This document shows positions 55,377 to 62,007 of a stretch of DNA of 62,007 nucleotides, piece by piece (the first letter of the stretch is position 1; each line of letters begins with the position of its first letter). This DNA is from Alphaproteobacteria bacterium. Its GTDB lineage: Bacteria > Pseudomonadota > Alphaproteobacteria > Rs-D84. The translations under genes and the position numbers were made by a program. The notes below the pieces were generated by a model. The model was not told the DNA's origin. It did no database searches and was given only the letters and a program-made list of their open reading frames with translations. Where the stretch lies: positions 1 to 62,007 of the forward strand of contig JAFGMC010000007.1 in NCBI GenBank assembly GCA_016927735.1, read 5' to 3'.

Positions 55377-56231
55377 TTATTCGCCTTTTTCAGCTTTTTC
55401 GGCCAATTTTTCGCGACGTTCTTCACGTGCCTCGGAAGTTTTAAGTTTTTGCTTTACTTCTTTTTCTTTTGTTTCTTCTTCGATTTTCTCGGCAACAATT
55501 ATCATATCTGATTCAACTTTTTTACCGGCAACCCCACCTAATCTTTTTTCAATACCAGACAATATTGCATCTACAAATAAATCACAATAAAGCTGTATTG
55601 CGCGTGATGCATCATCATTTCCAGGGATAGCATAATCAACTATATCTGGGTTTGCATTGGTGTCACAAATAGCAATTGTTGGAATATCCAAATTCTTTGC
55701 TTCACGAACAGCATTCATTTCACGTGGCATATCAATTATAATAACAGCCTGTGGTGTTCCATGAATATCCATAATTCCACCAAAGATTCCGCGCAACTTT
55801 TCAACTTCTTTTGTTATAACGCCGACTTCTTTCTTGGTTAAACCCAATTTTTCAGCGTTTTCAATATCAGCTTCCATTTTTTTCAAGCGACGTATGCTCT
55901 GTGAAACAGTGGACCAATTTGTCATCATTCCACCCAACCAACGATTATTTACATAAAATTGTCCACAACGTTCTGCTGCATCTTTTACAATATCTTTTGC
56001 TTGGTGTTTTGTTGCAATAAATAATACTTTTCCACCTGCTGCTGCAATTGCTTCCAGCGAAACCAGTGCGCGATGCAACATCGGTGCTGTTTTATTCAAA
56101 TTAATAATGTGAATTTTATCTTTAACACCGTAAACATATGGTGTCATTAATGGGTTCCAACGACGTGTGTGGTGACCAAAATGTACACCAGCTTCCATCA
56201 ATTGTTTCATAGTAAACTTAGGCAATGCCAT
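55377..56231 (-). CDS. rpsB: 30S ribosomal protein S2
   Basis: FTMKQLMEAGVHFGHHTRRWNPLMTPYVYGVKDKIHIINL. Confidence 0.96.
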   Translation of the reverse strand: MALPKFTMKQLMEAGVHFGHHTRRWNPLMTPYVYGVKDKIHIINLNKTAPMLHRALVSLEAIAAAGGKVLFIATKHQAKDIVKDAAERCGQFYVNNRWLGGMMTNWSTVSQSIRRLKKMEADIENAEKLGLTKKEVGVITKEVEKLRGIFGGIMDIHGTPQAVIIIDMPREMNAVREAKNLDIPTIAICDTNANPDIVDYAIPGNDDASRAIQLYCDLFVDAILSGIEKRLGGVAGKKVESDMIIVAEKIEEETKEKEVKQKLKTSEAREERREKLAEKAEKGE

Positions 56232-56396: not shown

Positions 56397-57128
56397 TCAA
56401 TATGGATTACAACTTAAATCAGTCATCATTCTTTTCATATATGCTTCATCAGCTTTCAATAGCTTATTTATAATTCCATTACGTTTCAAGTGTGCAAAAG
56501 CGAGCGAATAGGCAACCATACCAATAGAATAATCATCCCATGATTTCAATCTACGATTTTTCATATGACTGTATAAACCAGAAAGTTCTTTGTGTCTGGT
56601 TTTATCTTTTAAAACAGAATTTATCATTTTTTTCATTGCCAAATAATACAAATTTGTCTTATATCTCATAATTTTTAGTTCTTTATCACTATATTTTTTT
56701 GGATTACGAAGCCACTTCTTCTGAATCAATGAATACCGTACAAAGTCAAAATCTCTACTTATAAAACCTATATCGACACTTATACCATTTATTTTAGGAG
56801 AGTATTTATTTGTAAAAAATGTTCTTATAAAGCTATTAAATTTAATTAATAAATCAGGATGTATTTTTTCCAAATATCTATCCGGTCTTAGAATTATATC
56901 TATATCTATATCAGATTTTTTACTATAAAAATATTCTTTTGAAGAACCGCATAAAATAACATCAACAACGTCACGTTCCAGATCCATTGGAATATTATAA
57001 TATATTGACAATACTGTCATGAGTGAAATATATATTCTGTTTAACATCTCTGCAACTTCTGGTCGCAAAGAGTTATCTGGTAACCATATTTTTGGATTTA
57101 ATGTTTTATGATTTTTTATTTGCAACAT
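56397..57128 (-). CDS. Polymerase-beta-superfamily nucleotidyltransferase, type A (A1)
   Basis: LNPKIWLPDNSLRPEVAEMLNRIY...VILCGSSKEYFYSKKSDIDIDIIL...INGISVDIGF: GS-x(n)-DxD plus third Asp. Confidence 0.8.
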   Translation of the reverse strand: MLQIKNHKTLNPKIWLPDNSLRPEVAEMLNRIYISLMTVLSIYYNIPMDLERDVVDVILCGSSKEYFYSKKSDIDIDIILRPDRYLEKIHPDLLIKFNSFIRTFFTNKYSPKINGISVDIGFISRDFDFVRYSLIQKKWLRNPKKYSDKELKIMRYKTNLYYLAMKKMINSVLKDKTRHKELSGLYSHMKNRRLKSWDDYSIGMVAYSLAFAHLKRNGIINKLLKADEAYMKRMMTDLSCNPY

Positions 57129-57129
57129 A

Positions 57130-57852
57130 TTAATCTGTATCCCTTATCACTAAATCCTGTATTAATTCTTTATTAATATCAAGCATTTTATCAATCAGTC
57201 CTGTATCTCTGATGTATGAAAATGCAATTGAAAAAGGAGCCCTATTTTCAAAACTTTCGCTCCATGATTTATATCTTTTTTTTACAAGATAATCATAAAA
57301 CTTTGGTATATCAGCATGTTTATTTTTATCTTTAATAATATTATTAATCATTTTTTTAATAGCCAGGTAATATAAATTGGACCTGTAACTTATATATTTA
57401 AAATCTTCATCAGTTAGTCTTATCGGATAAATAACCCACTTATTATTCTTAACAGAGTAACATGATTTAGTGTATTTTTTTCTCGTTATGGATATATCAA
57501 CTGAAATTCCATTAATTTTTGGAAGATATTTTTTAATAAAAAAATTTCCAACAAAATTGCAATATATATCAAAAGCTTTTAAATCCATTTTGTCTAAATA
57601 TCTATCTATATTAACTATTATTTTAATATCTAGATCAGATTTATTTCTATAAAAATAATTTGCAGAAGATCCACATATAAAATAATCTTCCATATCTTTT
57701 TCAACATCAACTGGAATTTTTGCCAAAGCAGCTAAGGAAGTAATAACTGATACAACGATATTATTTATTACATTTTCAACATCGACCCTTAAAGACCCAT
57801 CCTGATTCCATATTTTAGGATTTAATATTTTATGATTTTTTATTTTCACCAT
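57130..57852 (-). CDS. Nucleotidyltransferase, type B (B1)
   Basis: LNPKIWNQDGSLRVDVENVINNIVV...FICGSSANYFYRNKSDLDIKIIV...INGISVDISI; start overlaps the end of the preceding type A gene by 23 bp. Confidence 0.8.
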   Translation of the reverse strand: MVKIKNHKILNPKIWNQDGSLRVDVENVINNIVVSVITSLAALAKIPVDVEKDMEDYFICGSSANYFYRNKSDLDIKIIVNIDRYLDKMDLKAFDIYCNFVGNFFIKKYLPKINGISVDISITRKKYTKSCYSVKNNKWVIYPIRLTDEDFKYISYRSNLYYLAIKKMINNIIKDKNKHADIPKFYDYLVKKRYKSWSESFENRAPFSIAFSYIRDTGLIDKMLDINKELIQDLVIRDTD

Positions 57853-58576
57853 AATTTTTATTTTCCATTATTAATTTTCTTATAAAACTTATATGACTAT
57901 TAACCAGCTTTTGTATAAATCCATCATGAACTAGATGTGATATAGCAGATCCAAAAGGCAAATATTCTTTTAAATTACCATTCCATGCAGCTGCGCGTTT
58001 TTTCGCTATATCATTAATAAATTCAGGGATTTCTGTATATCTTTTTTTATTTCTTAATAAAGATAAAATATCATTTCTTATAAGAAAAAATATTCTTTCT
58101 GATTTTTTATTTATTTCTTTTATTTCTGAACACGTTAATTTTGTAGGTTTTCTAAGCCACTTCTTTTGAATTAATGAATATCTTGCAAAATCATAATTAT
58201 CAGCCGGTTCAAAACTTATATCAACTGGTAAACCATAACAATTAGGAGAATATTTTTTAATAAAGACAGTCTTCACAAACCTTAATATTTTGCTGAATAT
58301 TTCCGAATTCATATTTTGTAAATATCTATCTGGTCTTAGAATTATAGTAATATCTATATCTGAAGTTTTTCTATAAAAATATTCCACCGAAGAGCCACAT
58401 AATATAACATCTATGACATCTTTTTCTATATCCAATTCCATACCAAAATAGTTTGACAATGTATTCATAAAGGATACGTATATTCTCGTCAAAGTCTCTG
58501 CAACTTCTGGTCGCAAAGAATTATCCGGAAGCCATAACTTCTGATTTAATTTTTTCTGATTTTTTATTTTAAACAT
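57830..58576 (-). CDS. Nucleotidyltransferase, type A (A2)
   Basis: LNQKLWLPDNSLRPEVAETLTRIYV...VILCGSSVEYFYRKTSDIDITIIL...YGLPVDISF. Confidence 0.8.
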   Translation of the reverse strand: MFKIKNQKKLNQKLWLPDNSLRPEVAETLTRIYVSFMNTLSNYFGMELDIEKDVIDVILCGSSVEYFYRKTSDIDITIILRPDRYLQNMNSEIFSKILRFVKTVFIKKYSPNCYGLPVDISFEPADNYDFARYSLIQKKWLRKPTKLTCSEIKEINKKSERIFFLIRNDILSLLRNKKRYTEIPEFINDIAKKRAAAWNGNLKEYLPFGSAISHLVHDGFIQKLVNSHISFIRKLIMENKNYGENKKS

Positions 58577-58594
58577 ATAAATACCAATAATTAA

Positions 58595-59224
58595 TTATGG
58601 TACAACACTTGATGATGAAGATGATGCTACTGGACAAATAGATGATACCCGCAACTGGGCAATCATTGTTCCATATCCATTTGTCATACTGCAACTTGAT
58701 GTACAATAACATTTTCCAGAATCTAAAACATCACTTGCAACAGCACAAGATGTATAAGTACAGGCGCCATATGAACCCCACATATAATAAGTAGAACCAC
58801 CTACAACTATAGCTTCACAACTTCTTGTCTGCGTCCCAGTTCCAACCTCAGTCGTACAAGATGTACTCGATGTTTGACCCAACGAACATTGATTAGAATA
58901 GTACTGACAACTTCCAGAATTCACCCAATCTGTTCCAGTATCTGTTCCTAACACAAGTTCTGAATTAGGACAATTAGAAGATCCATCTTGACAAACCCAA
59001 GCTTCAAAAGTACAAGACGAACAAATTTGTTTTTGTAAATAAGACGTTCCGCATGATACATATCGTGTATCACCTAATGTACAAGAAGTGTAAAAACAAA
59101 CGCCATATGCATCACTACCTATACCGAGTAATCTTAATAAAGGTACTACTAAAATACCAAATAATGTCACAAAAATCTTATTGTAAAAAAACCTTATTTG
59201 TTTTGCCATAATAATATCTCTCAT
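58595..59224 (-). CDS. Cys-rich exported protein, Sec1
   Basis: MAKQIRFFYNKIFVTLFGILVVPLLRLLGIG leader; many Cys; GTGTQTRSCEAIVVGG...MWGSYGACTYTSC; C-terminal CYCTSSCSMTNGYGTMIAQLRVSSICPVASSSSSSVVP. Confidence 0.75.
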   Translation of the reverse strand: MRDIIMAKQIRFFYNKIFVTLFGILVVPLLRLLGIGSDAYGVCFYTSCTLGDTRYVSCGTSYLQKQICSSCTFEAWVCQDGSSNCPNSELVLGTDTGTDWVNSGSCQYYSNQCSLGQTSSTSCTTEVGTGTQTRSCEAIVVGGSTYYMWGSYGACTYTSCAVASDVLDSGKCYCTSSCSMTNGYGTMIAQLRVSSICPVASSSSSSVVP

Positions 59225-59383
59225 CTTTATATTAATATATTATTGCCGTATTAATCTTATAGATTTATTGAAGTTGGCAAAAAATTTAAAGAATTCTATA
59301 ATAAAATAATAAAAAGAACTCTGTTTGATACTATGATAAATATAAAAACAAAGCAAGAAATTAATTATGTTGATTTGTATACA
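59225..59383 (-). promoter_or_regulatory. Conserved upstream region of Sec1
   Basis: Shares TTAATTTCTTGCTTTG, ATCATA/GTCATA, AAACAGAGTT, TTGCCAA and AAAGATGAGA blocks, in order, with 60142-60270. Confidence 0.4.
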
Positions 59384-59470
59384 TCATGAATCCTGTATTG
59401 ATTCCTTATTAATATCAAGCATTTTATCAATCAATCCTGTATCTCTGACGTATGAAAATGCAATTGAAAA
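59384..59470 (-). pseudogene. Relic of a type B nucleotidyltransferase C-terminus
   Basis: FSIAFSYVRDTGLIDKMLDINKESIQDS matches FSIAFSYIRDTGLIDKMLDINKELIQDL of B1. Confidence 0.85.
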
Positions 59471-59514
59471 ATCGGATTTAATATAAAAGTATAAATAAAA
59501 TATCAATTGATTAA

Positions 59515-60141
59515 TTATGGTACAACACTTGATGATGATGATGAAGCTATTGGACAAAGAGATGATACCCGCAACTGGGCAATCATAGTTCCATATCCAT
59601 TTGTCATACTGCAACTTGATGTACAATAACATTTTCCAGAATCAAGAACATCTGTTGATTCAGCACAAGATGTATAAACACATGTTCCGTATTCACCCCA
59701 CATTAAATAAGTAGTGCCACCAACAACAATTGCAGCACAAGTTCTGGTTTGTGTTCCACTTCCAACCTCGTTCGTACAAGATGTACTGGATGTTTGTCCA
59801 ACATAAGAGCATTCATTTGCATAAGTTGTACAACTTCCAGAATCTTTCCAATATGTCCCATCAACAATAGTTAGTACCCAATTTGAATCAGGCCATTGAA
59901 AAAAAACCCATTGTTCATATGTACAAGAATTACATACTTGTTTTTGTAAACCTGTTGCACAAGCAATATAACGTGTATTGTTTAAAGTACATTGACCCGC
60001 ATAACAGGCCGTATCCGTAGCAAACGCCTCGCCACCTATACCAAGTAATCTTAATAAAGGGACTATTAAAATACTAAATAATGTCACAAAAATCTTATTG
60101 TAAAAAAACCTTATTTGTTTTGCCATAATTTTATCTCTCAT
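59515..60141 (-). CDS. Cys-rich exported protein, Sec2
   Basis: Leader MAKQIRFFYNKIFVTLFSILIVPLLRLLGIG nearly identical to Sec1, diverged middle, C-terminus nearly identical. Confidence 0.75.
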   Translation of the reverse strand: MRDKIMAKQIRFFYNKIFVTLFSILIVPLLRLLGIGGEAFATDTACYAGQCTLNNTRYIACATGLQKQVCNSCTYEQWVFFQWPDSNWVLTIVDGTYWKDSGSCTTYANECSYVGQTSSTSCTNEVGSGTQTRTCAAIVVGGTTYLMWGEYGTCVYTSCAESTDVLDSGKCYCTSSCSMTNGYGTMIAQLRVSSLCPIASSSSSSVVP

Positions 60142-60270
60142 CTTTATATCTGATATTTTATTTGCTAAATTAAAAATAACTTTATGAATTTGGCAAATAA
60201 ATTTAAAAAATTATGTAATAAAAACAACTCTGTTTGGATGGTATGACAAATAAAAAACCAAAGCAAGAAA
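60142..60270 (-). promoter_or_regulatory. Conserved upstream region of Sec2
   Basis: Shares ordered blocks with 59225-59383. Confidence 0.4.
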
Positions 60271-61002
60271 TTAATTATCTTGATTTATATCCGTCATCAA
60301 ATCCTGTATTAATTCTTTATTAAGATTAAGCATTTTATCGATAATACCCGTATCACTTAGATTTGATAATGCAATAGAAAATGGCTCTCTATTATTAAAT
60401 TTATCATCCCATGATTTTACACGTTTTGTTCTGAGATATGCATAAAACTTTGGTGTATCAGCATGTTTATTTTTATCTTTAATTATATTTTTAACCATTT
60501 TTTTAATTGCTAGATAATATAATTTTGACCTGTAATTTATATATTTGCACTCTTCATCAGTTAATCTTTCTGGTTCTATAATCCATTTTTTTTGCATCAA
60601 AGAATATTTTGTTATTTCTGCAGCAGTACCAACAATTCCAATATCAACCGGTATTCCAAAAATATTTGGTGAATATTTTTTAACAAAATAAGAGCTTATG
60701 AATTTAGAAAATACTTTATACATTCCCATATCCATTTTTTCAAGATATCTAGCTTGTCTGACAATTATTTTCATATCCAAATCAGATTTTTTTCTGTAAA
60801 AATAATTTGCACAAGATCCACACAAAACAACTTCTTCTATATCTTTTTCAAAATCAATCGGTATTTTTGAGAATGTAGATAACGAACTTATAATAGATAC
60901 AACCATATTATCTAATACAACAGCAACATCAGGTCGTAAAGAGCCATCTTTAAGCCATATCTTAGGGTTTAATCTTTTATGATTTGGTACTTTTATAATC
61001 AT
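60271..61002 (-). CDS. Nucleotidyltransferase, type B (B2)
   Basis: LNPKIWLKDGSLRPDVAVVLDNMVV...VLCGSCANYFYRKKSDLDMKIIV...FGIPVDIGI; 4-bp overlap with A3. Confidence 0.8.
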   Translation of the reverse strand: MIIKVPNHKRLNPKIWLKDGSLRPDVAVVLDNMVVSIISSLSTFSKIPIDFEKDIEEVVLCGSCANYFYRKKSDLDMKIIVRQARYLEKMDMGMYKVFSKFISSYFVKKYSPNIFGIPVDIGIVGTAAEITKYSLMQKKWIIEPERLTDEECKYINYRSKLYYLAIKKMVKNIIKDKNKHADTPKFYAYLRTKRVKSWDDKFNNREPFSIALSNLSDTGIIDKMLNLNKELIQDLMTDINQDN

Positions 61003-61724
61003 TTATCTAATTTTCCCATCATAAGTTTTTTAGTCATATTATCATTAGCATCCAGCATTTTTTGAATAAGGCCGGAACGATTAATACATGAATAAGCACT
61101 CGAAAATGGTAAATAGTCTTTTAAACTGCCATTCCATGCATTTGTGCGACGCATTTTAAGTTTATGCATAATTTTTGTTATTTCAGCATATCTACTCTTA
61201 TCCCTTAATAAACTGATAATTTCTTTACGCATTTCTTTATAAATTTTATTAGCTTTGTATTGTACTTCTTTCATTTCTTTATCTGTTAATCTTGTCGGTT
61301 CTTTCAACCATTTTTTTTGAACCAAAGAGTATCTTGCAAAATCAAAATCAACAGGGGCAAAACCTATATCTACCCTTTTACCATTAATCTTAGGAGAGTA
61401 TTTATAAATAAAAAAATTTCTGATAAATTTTATAAAAACCTCAAATACTTCTGGTTTTATTCTTTTTAAATATCTATCCGGTCTTAAAATTATGGTAATA
61501 TCTATATCTGAATTTTTATTATAAGAATATTCTTTTGAAGAACCACATAATATAACATCAATAATATCATGCTCTAAATCAAGAGGAAATCCCGAGTAAA
61601 GAGATAAAACAGTCATAAGTGAAATATATATTCTGTTTAACATCTCTGCAACTTCTGGTCGCAGAGAATTATCCGGAAGCCATAACTTCGGATTTAATGT
61701 TTTGTGATTTTTTATCTTAAACAT
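60999..61724 (-). CDS. Nucleotidyltransferase, type A (A3)
   Basis: LNPKLWLPDNSLRPEVAEMLNRIYISLM...VILCGSSKEYSYNKNSDIDITIIL...INGKRVDIGF. Confidence 0.8.
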   Translation of the reverse strand: MFKIKNHKTLNPKLWLPDNSLRPEVAEMLNRIYISLMTVLSLYSGFPLDLEHDIIDVILCGSSKEYSYNKNSDIDITIILRPDRYLKRIKPEVFEVFIKFIRNFFIYKYSPKINGKRVDIGFAPVDFDFARYSLVQKKWLKEPTRLTDKEMKEVQYKANKIYKEMRKEIISLLRDKSRYAEITKIMHKLKMRRTNAWNGSLKDYLPFSSAYSCINRSGLIQKMLDANDNMTKKLMMGKLDK

Positions 61725-61748
61725 ATAAATTTAAACCAATTTTGCCTA

Positions 61749-62007
61749 TTATGGCACAACACTCGATGATGATGATGATGATGCTATTGGACAAACAGAT
61801 GATATTCGCAACGCGGCAATCATTGTTCCATATCCATTTGTCATACTGCAACTGGTCTTACAATAACATTTTCCACTGTCTAGAACATCAGTTGGTTCAA
61901 CACAAGAAGTATAAACACATGTTCCGTAATCCCCCCACATTAAATAATTGGTGCCACCTATGGTTCTAGTTTCACAAATTCTGGTTTGTGTTCCACTTCC
62001 AACCTCG
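61749..62007 (-). CDS. Cys-rich exported protein, Sec3; runs off the right edge
   Basis: EVGSGTQTRICETRTIGGTNYLMWGDYGTCVYTSCVEPTDVLDSGKCYCKTSCSMTNGYGTMIAALRISSVCPIASSSSSSSVVP. Confidence 0.75.
   Translation of the reverse strand, partial: EVGSGTQTRICETRTIGGTNYLMWGDYGTCVYTSCVEPTDVLDSGKCYCKTSCSMTNGYGTMIAALRISSVCPIASSSSSSSVVP

Follow-up and report, generated by a model that had tools for sequence, protein, structure and literature searches.

An apparently undescribed operon family of exported cysteine-rich proteins and tandem nucleotidyltransferases in small-genome Alphaproteobacteria

Background

Among described nucleotidyltransferases (NTases), the aminoglycoside and lincosamide enzymes act on small molecules, and proteins are AMPylated by the MNT antitoxin and by DrrA. 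The NTase homologue PsmN has as its target the C-terminal serine of a lasso peptide, after phosphorylation (PMC9266682). The DNA analysed here (the window), contig C8, measures 62,007 bases; it belongs to a 764-kb alphaproteobacterial genome in 14 contigs (G000) and carries on its minus strand at 56397-62007 three tandem copies of a unit made up of an exported Cys-rich protein (Sec), an NTase of type A and an NTase of type B. The unit belongs to an operon family of small-genome Alphaproteobacteria, each operon encoding an exported Cys-rich protein together with one to eight NTases, that is apparently undescribed: no description of the system was found in the literature, the search having covered open-licence papers only.

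Linkage of the NTases to exported proteins

Sixty NTase arrays were listed, and 45 of them directly follow the gene of a protein with at least 4% Cys, most of these proteins having a hydrophobic N-terminus. In eight arrays a GT2 glycosyltransferase gene (PF00535, best 2.8e-10, found inside the operon in eight genomes) stands between the Cys-rich protein and the NTase, two follow exported proteins with 2.5-3.3% Cys, and one is cut by a contig end. Export was judged from hydrophobic N-termini only; some upstream frames are partial at contig ends, and the check covers the others. The background was taken from the complete genome G036 with a simple gene caller (longest open frames), and 27 of its 940 genes (2.9%) have such a Cys-rich neighbour.

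Whole-genome profile searches placed the NTases in three families of Alphaproteobacteria, that of the window (f1), f52 and f55, which have a common architecture but partners without visible sequence likeness; because the partners are so unlike, pure inheritance of a single gene pair is unlikely. Of 191 relatives, 16 (the window's genome counted) matched a single-NTase query and four matched a Sec query, all four being NTase-positive as well; a profile built from 25 NTases matched 35 of 202 genomes of the order and 25 of 157 of f52, and in f55 one genome (G180) has four tandem NTase genes. The preliminary description of the locus had reasoned that a real system should show Sec-like and NTase genes together elsewhere and Sec homologs not standing alone; the two occur together in many other genomes, and no solitary Sec was seen among the 191 relatives. 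With the same profile the class sample gave nothing further convincing and the phylum sample gave three short matches to the core motif only; a plasmid search gave no match, and a scan of genome contigs gave a single locus, on the contig of a genome of the same genus (G001).

Gene order varies with lineage. In genus g11 a small exported protein (Sec0) precedes Sec and the NTase, both Sec0 and Sec align with those of G000, and in many genomes the NTase start lies inside the end of Sec, while a second g11 group has the order exported protein, GT2, NTase. In f52 the Cys-rich exported protein is followed by 2 to 8 NTase domains, some fused pairwise. The carrier genomes measure 0.7-1.1 Mb, and the order Rs-D84, with the genus Enterousia, has been described as partner-dependent (PMC12306168); the hosts are probably reduced-genome, partner-dependent bacteria.

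Several individual loci may be recorded here. Fused double NTases of about 500 residues end arrays of 7-8 genes (L130 2984-4495; L131 3137-4651), one f52 partner (L148 1916-3112) matches a phage tail collar domain (PF07484, 2.9e-8), and orthologous NTase pairs in L133, L137 and L114 lie right after an IF-1-like gene, with a degenerate first member and without a Cys-rich partner.

Layout of the array

The gene order, the positions and the 4-bp (A3/B2) and 23-bp (A2/B1) overlaps of the preliminary description are all present (Table 1). Sec1 and Sec2 are 73% identical, A1 is 41-58% identical to the other four NTases, and the intergenic stretches 5' of Sec1 and of Sec2 are 76% identical over 141 bp. 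The unit of Sec2 lacks its A gene and most of its B gene, of which only a relic of the 3' end is left. After A1 on the minus strand come what is presumably rpsB, as judged from its reading frame, and then tsf. A profile search of the whole genome revealed no NTase copy beyond those of the window, and outside the window Sec sequence occurs only as an N-terminal half at the C6 contig end.

Table 1. Features of the array, of its continuation on contig C6 and of its downstream neighbour
Feature	Position	Strand	Evidence or remark
Sec3 C-terminal half, exported Cys-rich protein with poly-Ser tail	61749..62006	-	reading frame runs off contig; contig-end comparison
Sec3 N-terminal half	L019 10965-11327		right end of contig C6
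A3, Pol-beta-fold nucleotidyltransferase, A type, 241 aa	60999..61724	-	PF01909 24.2 bits; phrog_36119 8.5e-16; AlphaFold2 pLDDT 93
B2, nucleotidyltransferase, B type, 243 aa	60271..61002	-	4-bp overlap with A3
Sec2, exported Cys-rich protein, 208 aa, tail SSSSSSVVP	59515..60141	-	reading frame, alignment, structure model
B relic, 3' end only	59384..59482	-	78% protein identity to B1 residues 203-234; 95% DNA identity over 83 bp to 3' end of B1
Sec1, exported Cys-rich protein, 209 aa, tail SSSSSSVVP	58595..59224	-	reading frame, alignment
A2, nucleotidyltransferase, A type, 248 aa	57830..58576	-	PF01909 26.7 bits (gathering score 21)
B1, nucleotidyltransferase, B type, 240 aa	57130..57852	-	23-bp overlap with A2
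A1, mosaic nucleotidyltransferase, 243 aa	56397..57128	-	sliding identity; tree position between A and B
rpsB (presumed ribosomal protein S2), outside system	55377..56231	-	constant downstream neighbour in G000 and G001
Sec0, small exported protein, 89 aa, heads array	L019 10683-10952		contig C6; precedes Sec3

The ends of C6 and C8 meet inside a stretch that is also present in Sec2: C6 ends ...TGTACGA, C8 read backwards begins CGAGGTTGG..., and Sec2 at that point reads TGTACGAACGAGGTTGG. To judge from this overlap, the two halves of Sec3 are very likely one gene cut by the assembler at a repeat, and the order C6-Sec3-C8 is supported by synteny with G001. Extension to the right, as the preliminary description proposed, carries the array onto C6, with the N-terminal half of Sec3 and Sec0. 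The repeat-derived break in Sec3 is the only assembly effect seen in the array; an artefactual array was rejected, as the copies are just 41-82% alike and G001 has a single-unit form at the same locus.

On C6 the genes 5' of Sec3 encode, in order, a 1007-residue Cys-containing exported protein, a 481-residue outer-membrane-like protein (PF17251, 4.7e-8), proteins of 207 and 378 residues, and Sec0. The 378-residue exported protein (L019 9550-10686; homologue L050 5999-7423) contains HEHKH, which is HEDDH in the homologue of G003, a genome of another genus; it is possibly a zinc metallopeptidase and has a weak Tox-MPTase4 match (0.067). It was rejected as a core component, since it adjoins Sec only in G000 and G003. 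Exported Cys-containing proteins of about 1000 residues (L019 3966-6989, L049 3-1376, L051 8164-11124) include, near the array in G000 and G001, the motif YYSCMDEFC...RCAC, and a similar protein lies directly 5' of the NTase in G005.

The nucleotidyltransferases

All five window NTases have G[SG]...DxD and a third Asp, and share the signature CGS[SC]-x-x-Y-x-Y...SD[IL]D with the later VDI Asp that had been noticed earlier. A2 and A3 exceed the gathering score of PF01909 (21), and A1 (19.1), B2 (18.0) and B1 (13.8) fall below it. Loss of catalytic residues in most homologs had been named beforehand as evidence against an active system; of the 119 NTase domains, G[SG]-D-D-D is intact in 96, and 8 more have Glu for the last Asp. 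Fourteen domains are degenerate, 11 of them first in their array, and the one further domain is the B relic. In some pairs the first member has become a pseudo-enzyme, which a heteromer would lead one to expect.

Modelled with AlphaFold2 (mean pLDDT, the predicted local distance difference test score, of 93), A3 has an NTase core and, C-terminal to it, four long helices. Among solved structures its best fold match is AAD(9) (E value 9e-3, template-modelling (TM) score 0.27), then LinB, MNT and CdnE, with DrrA lower; kinship of the modelled A3 to these is at superfamily level only, and structure and family-model searches found no solved structure or curated family close to the window NTases. 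In phylogenetic trees the window's A/B split falls inside its own family, and nearly all first genes of f52 form one clade (99/93) and later genes another (99/94), which indicates that pairs arose more than once; tandem sets of 2-8 paralogues arose independently at least three times (in g1/g3, f52 and G180).

The exported partner

The Sec model (overall pLDDT 66) consists of a hydrophobic helix at the N-terminus, a body rich in beta structure and a disordered C-terminal tail (pLDDT 34). No Pfam domain was found in Sec, a fold search with this low-confidence model returned no match, and a search of PDB sequences with a Sec profile returned nothing informative. A poly-Ser tail is present in G000, G001, G003 and most g11 genomes in which the NTase directly follows Sec. 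At least four consecutive Ser occur within the last 14 residues of 14 of 20 direct f1 partners versus 0 of 941 other genes of G036, the NTase partner of G036 being the sole gene among 942 with such a tail. The Ser codons are mixed, TCN and AGY, and the tail is therefore evidently kept at the protein level. A promoter scan showed no excess.

G036 also has a recurrent pair of small exported Cys proteins at many sites (L160-L210; for example 260255-260971, 322932-323684, 330262-331035, 364953-365705 and 984011-984838), one of about 150 residues ending FSGLSD or FSNLSD and one of about 92 residues ending TSACPLE.

Origin of the array

The single unit of G001 lies in the order homologues of 488 and 208 residues, small protein, Sec, A, B, rpsB, tsf, and G003 has one Sec-A-B unit at a different location, beside a serine recombinase. 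B1 and B2 of the window group together in the tree, with the B of G001 outside (support 100/98), which makes the amplification recent. Unequal recombination would fit both the B relic and the repetition of the intergenic stretch. A1, which the preliminary description took for an extra A gene, is A-like in its catalytic domain (59-92% identity to A3) but not in its C-terminal part: beyond about column 140, close to the border of the helical C-terminal domain, its identity is 40-60% to the B of the relative versus 18-48% to the A genes, and in the tree it falls between A and B. A single ancestral Sec-A-B unit has here become a three-unit array, most likely through unequal recombination and gene conversion.

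Every finite comparison gives a ratio of nonsynonymous to synonymous divergence (dN/dS) of 0.15-0.51, that is, purifying selection. Between Sec1 and Sec2 synonymous divergence (dS) reaches 1.01 in the middle as against 0.21 in the leader and 0.33 in the C-terminal part, with dN/dS about 0.3-0.4 in all three alike; the middle looks divergent because the leader and C-terminus have been homogenised, and not through positive selection, which was rejected for Sec on the range of dN/dS. The "diversifying conflict" system suggested in the preliminary description is not supported.

In G003 the neighbours of the Sec-A-B unit are the serine recombinase and a subtilisin-like autotransporter (L050 2923-3561 and 1064-2926).

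Proposed function and alternatives

The genes, their linkage, the fold, the catalytic residues, the tail and the amplification were computed directly; from them we infer export, pairing, the substrate and the reaction itself. The reading preferred here, plausible although still short of probable, is that the NTases attach a nucleoside monophosphate (NMP) either to the exported partner itself or to a group that the partner carries, while the partner is still in the cytosol, and that A and B act as a pair. Each operon would encode a Cys-rich exported protein of the disulfide type, in many cases preceded by another, small one, along with at least one cytosolic NTase; with the NTase genes adjoining or overlapping that of the exported protein, the enzymes would be made next to the new precursor. 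For the window's family the proposed acceptor is the flexible poly-Ser tail, which, being C-terminal, would go through the Sec channel last; in another family the leading member of a pair is sometimes a dead enzyme. The preliminary description had suggested that the NTases modify or regulate the exported protein or a partner of it; the poly-Ser tails, the GT2 genes and the gene order sharpen that version of a putative action on the exported protein. GT2 inside the operon suggests decoration, with a sugar involved in some lineages, and the precedents of MNT, DrrA and PsmN support modification by analogy. A new class of protein modification, in which the NTase pair nucleotidylates the poly-Ser tail before export and gives a surface decorated with nucleotides or nucleotide-linked glycans, is a more doubtful proposition.

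Several points weigh against modification of the exported partner. Four of the 60 arrays are without a Cys-rich neighbour (G735, G725, G731 and one of two in G615; those of G725 and G731 are orthologous), and many arrays share descent, so that 45 of 60 does not amount to 45 independent events. Partners of several unlike sequences are not what a single protein-modifying specificity would predict, and the poly-Ser tail is missing from the f52 and f55 partners and from 6 of 20 f1 partners and therefore cannot be the acceptor everywhere. A modified cytosolic precursor would still have to traverse the export channel, the fold search matches solved AMPylators only weakly (E about 0.03-0.2), and the phage relatives of the NTases have no such exported partner.

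The nearest rival, itself rather unlikely, is that the NTases have as their substrate not the protein itself but a glycan, a lipid or a free small molecule, which would afterwards be bound or carried by the exported protein. It would explain why partners are unlike in sequence, the best distant fold matches (AAD(9), AadA, LinB) share with the window NTases a two-domain layout, catalytic plus helical, and the GT2 gene that separates the NTase from the exported protein in eight genomes suits it; however, most operons are without sugar-activating or other biosynthetic genes, and the overlap of the NTase with the exported-protein gene, together with the partner-specific tail, favours a protein. 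Weak profile matches to MTPAP, TUTase, Gld-2 and CutA, and phage relatives situated among replication, tail or lysis genes, are consistent with an action on RNA (tRNA or mRNA ends) or with synthesis of a nucleotide signal, the link to the exported protein then being regulatory. This is unlikely, as no CD-NTase, RlaP or RNA-binding domain match was obtained and the tight pairing with Cys-rich exported proteins would be left unexplained.

A toxin-antitoxin or polymorphic-toxin locus, with the exported protein as toxin and the tandem NTases as MntA-like immunity or antitoxin, would recall the neutralisation of HEPN toxins by MntA NTases, and the Tox-MPTase4 match of the protein 5' of Sec0, weak as it is (0.067), points the same way, as do known polyimmunity loci with tandem paralogues (PMC3482391). 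No toxin domain was found in any of the partners scanned, the MntA model scored far under its cut-off, active-site residues are kept in most copies, selection is purifying and no plasmid was matched, all of which makes such a locus very unlikely. Least probable is functionless hitch-hiking, by which a linkage inherited from a common ancestor persists beside abundant Cys-rich genes: about 10% of G036 genes are Cys-rich with a hydrophobic N-terminus and many arrays are related by descent, but the background adjacency of 2.9% contrasts with 45 of 60, amplification was repeated and independent, and partners change while the linkage stays.

Nucleotidylation of the exported partner, if true, would be a new route by which bacteria decorate exported proteins with nucleotides. 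The linkage is strong, crosses family borders and offers a testable acceptor site; it would add an apparently undescribed partnership, of an exported protein with tandem NTases, to a superfamily in which toxins, RNAs and small molecules have been the known partners, and, in uncultured lineages with reduced genomes, it may bear on how the hosts contact partner cells.

Comparison with known systems

AAD(9), AadA and LinB resemble the window NTases in having a catalytic NTase domain and then a helical domain, but the fold matches are distant (E 9e-3 to 0.03, TM about 0.25) and ANT(9) scores 16.3 bits against a cut-off of 340. MntA-HepT (type VII toxin-antitoxin) likewise combines a GS...DxD NTase, a small operon and a dedicated partner, but the partner in the window is exported and Cys-rich, not HEPN. 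The MntA model gives 14.4-16 bits in three of the five window NTases and no match in the other two (cut-off 60), and Pfam and family models found no HEPN match among the window proteins; the kinship to MntA and HEPN raised in the preliminary description is weak. PADLOC reported no CD-NTase, only weak PDC-S09 matches and one weak ThsA match, and RlaP gave no Pfam match at E up to 1. MntA, CBASS, ANT(9) and RlaP were rejected as family names, scores being below cut-offs or matches absent. Compared with polymorphic toxins, the exported partner has no Pfam toxin domain and its low-confidence model no fold match. PsmN of pseudomycoidin, likened here by description only, is an NTase homologue whose target is the C-terminal Ser of a peptide made by ribosomes (PMC9266682); the window has no lasso genes or kinase, and its partner is a Cys-rich protein of 200 residues.

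Full-length NTase relatives outside operons of the window type were found, by profile and fold searches, only in phages. The phage NTases (phrog_36119 and fused forms; cyanophages, Caulobacter phage Cr30 and uncultured Caudovirales; tblastn to 8e-10) differ in that the copies seen are single and without an exported Cys-rich partner, with Glu as the third catalytic acidic residue in the five checked. The phrog_36119 profile matches at 3e-11 to 8.5e-16, in four of the five NTases from residue 2-3 to residue 194-228, and a fold search of viral models with A3 gave eleven matches with E < 1e-7 (best 5e-14, TM about 0.5-0.7 over the full length) to large, mostly uncharacterised phage proteins, one named amidoligase. 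The phage resemblance that the preliminary description pointed out is thus confirmed by both kinds of search, and nucleotidylation of an exported partner, if correct, would suggest what these phage NTases, at present labelled as of unknown function, may do.

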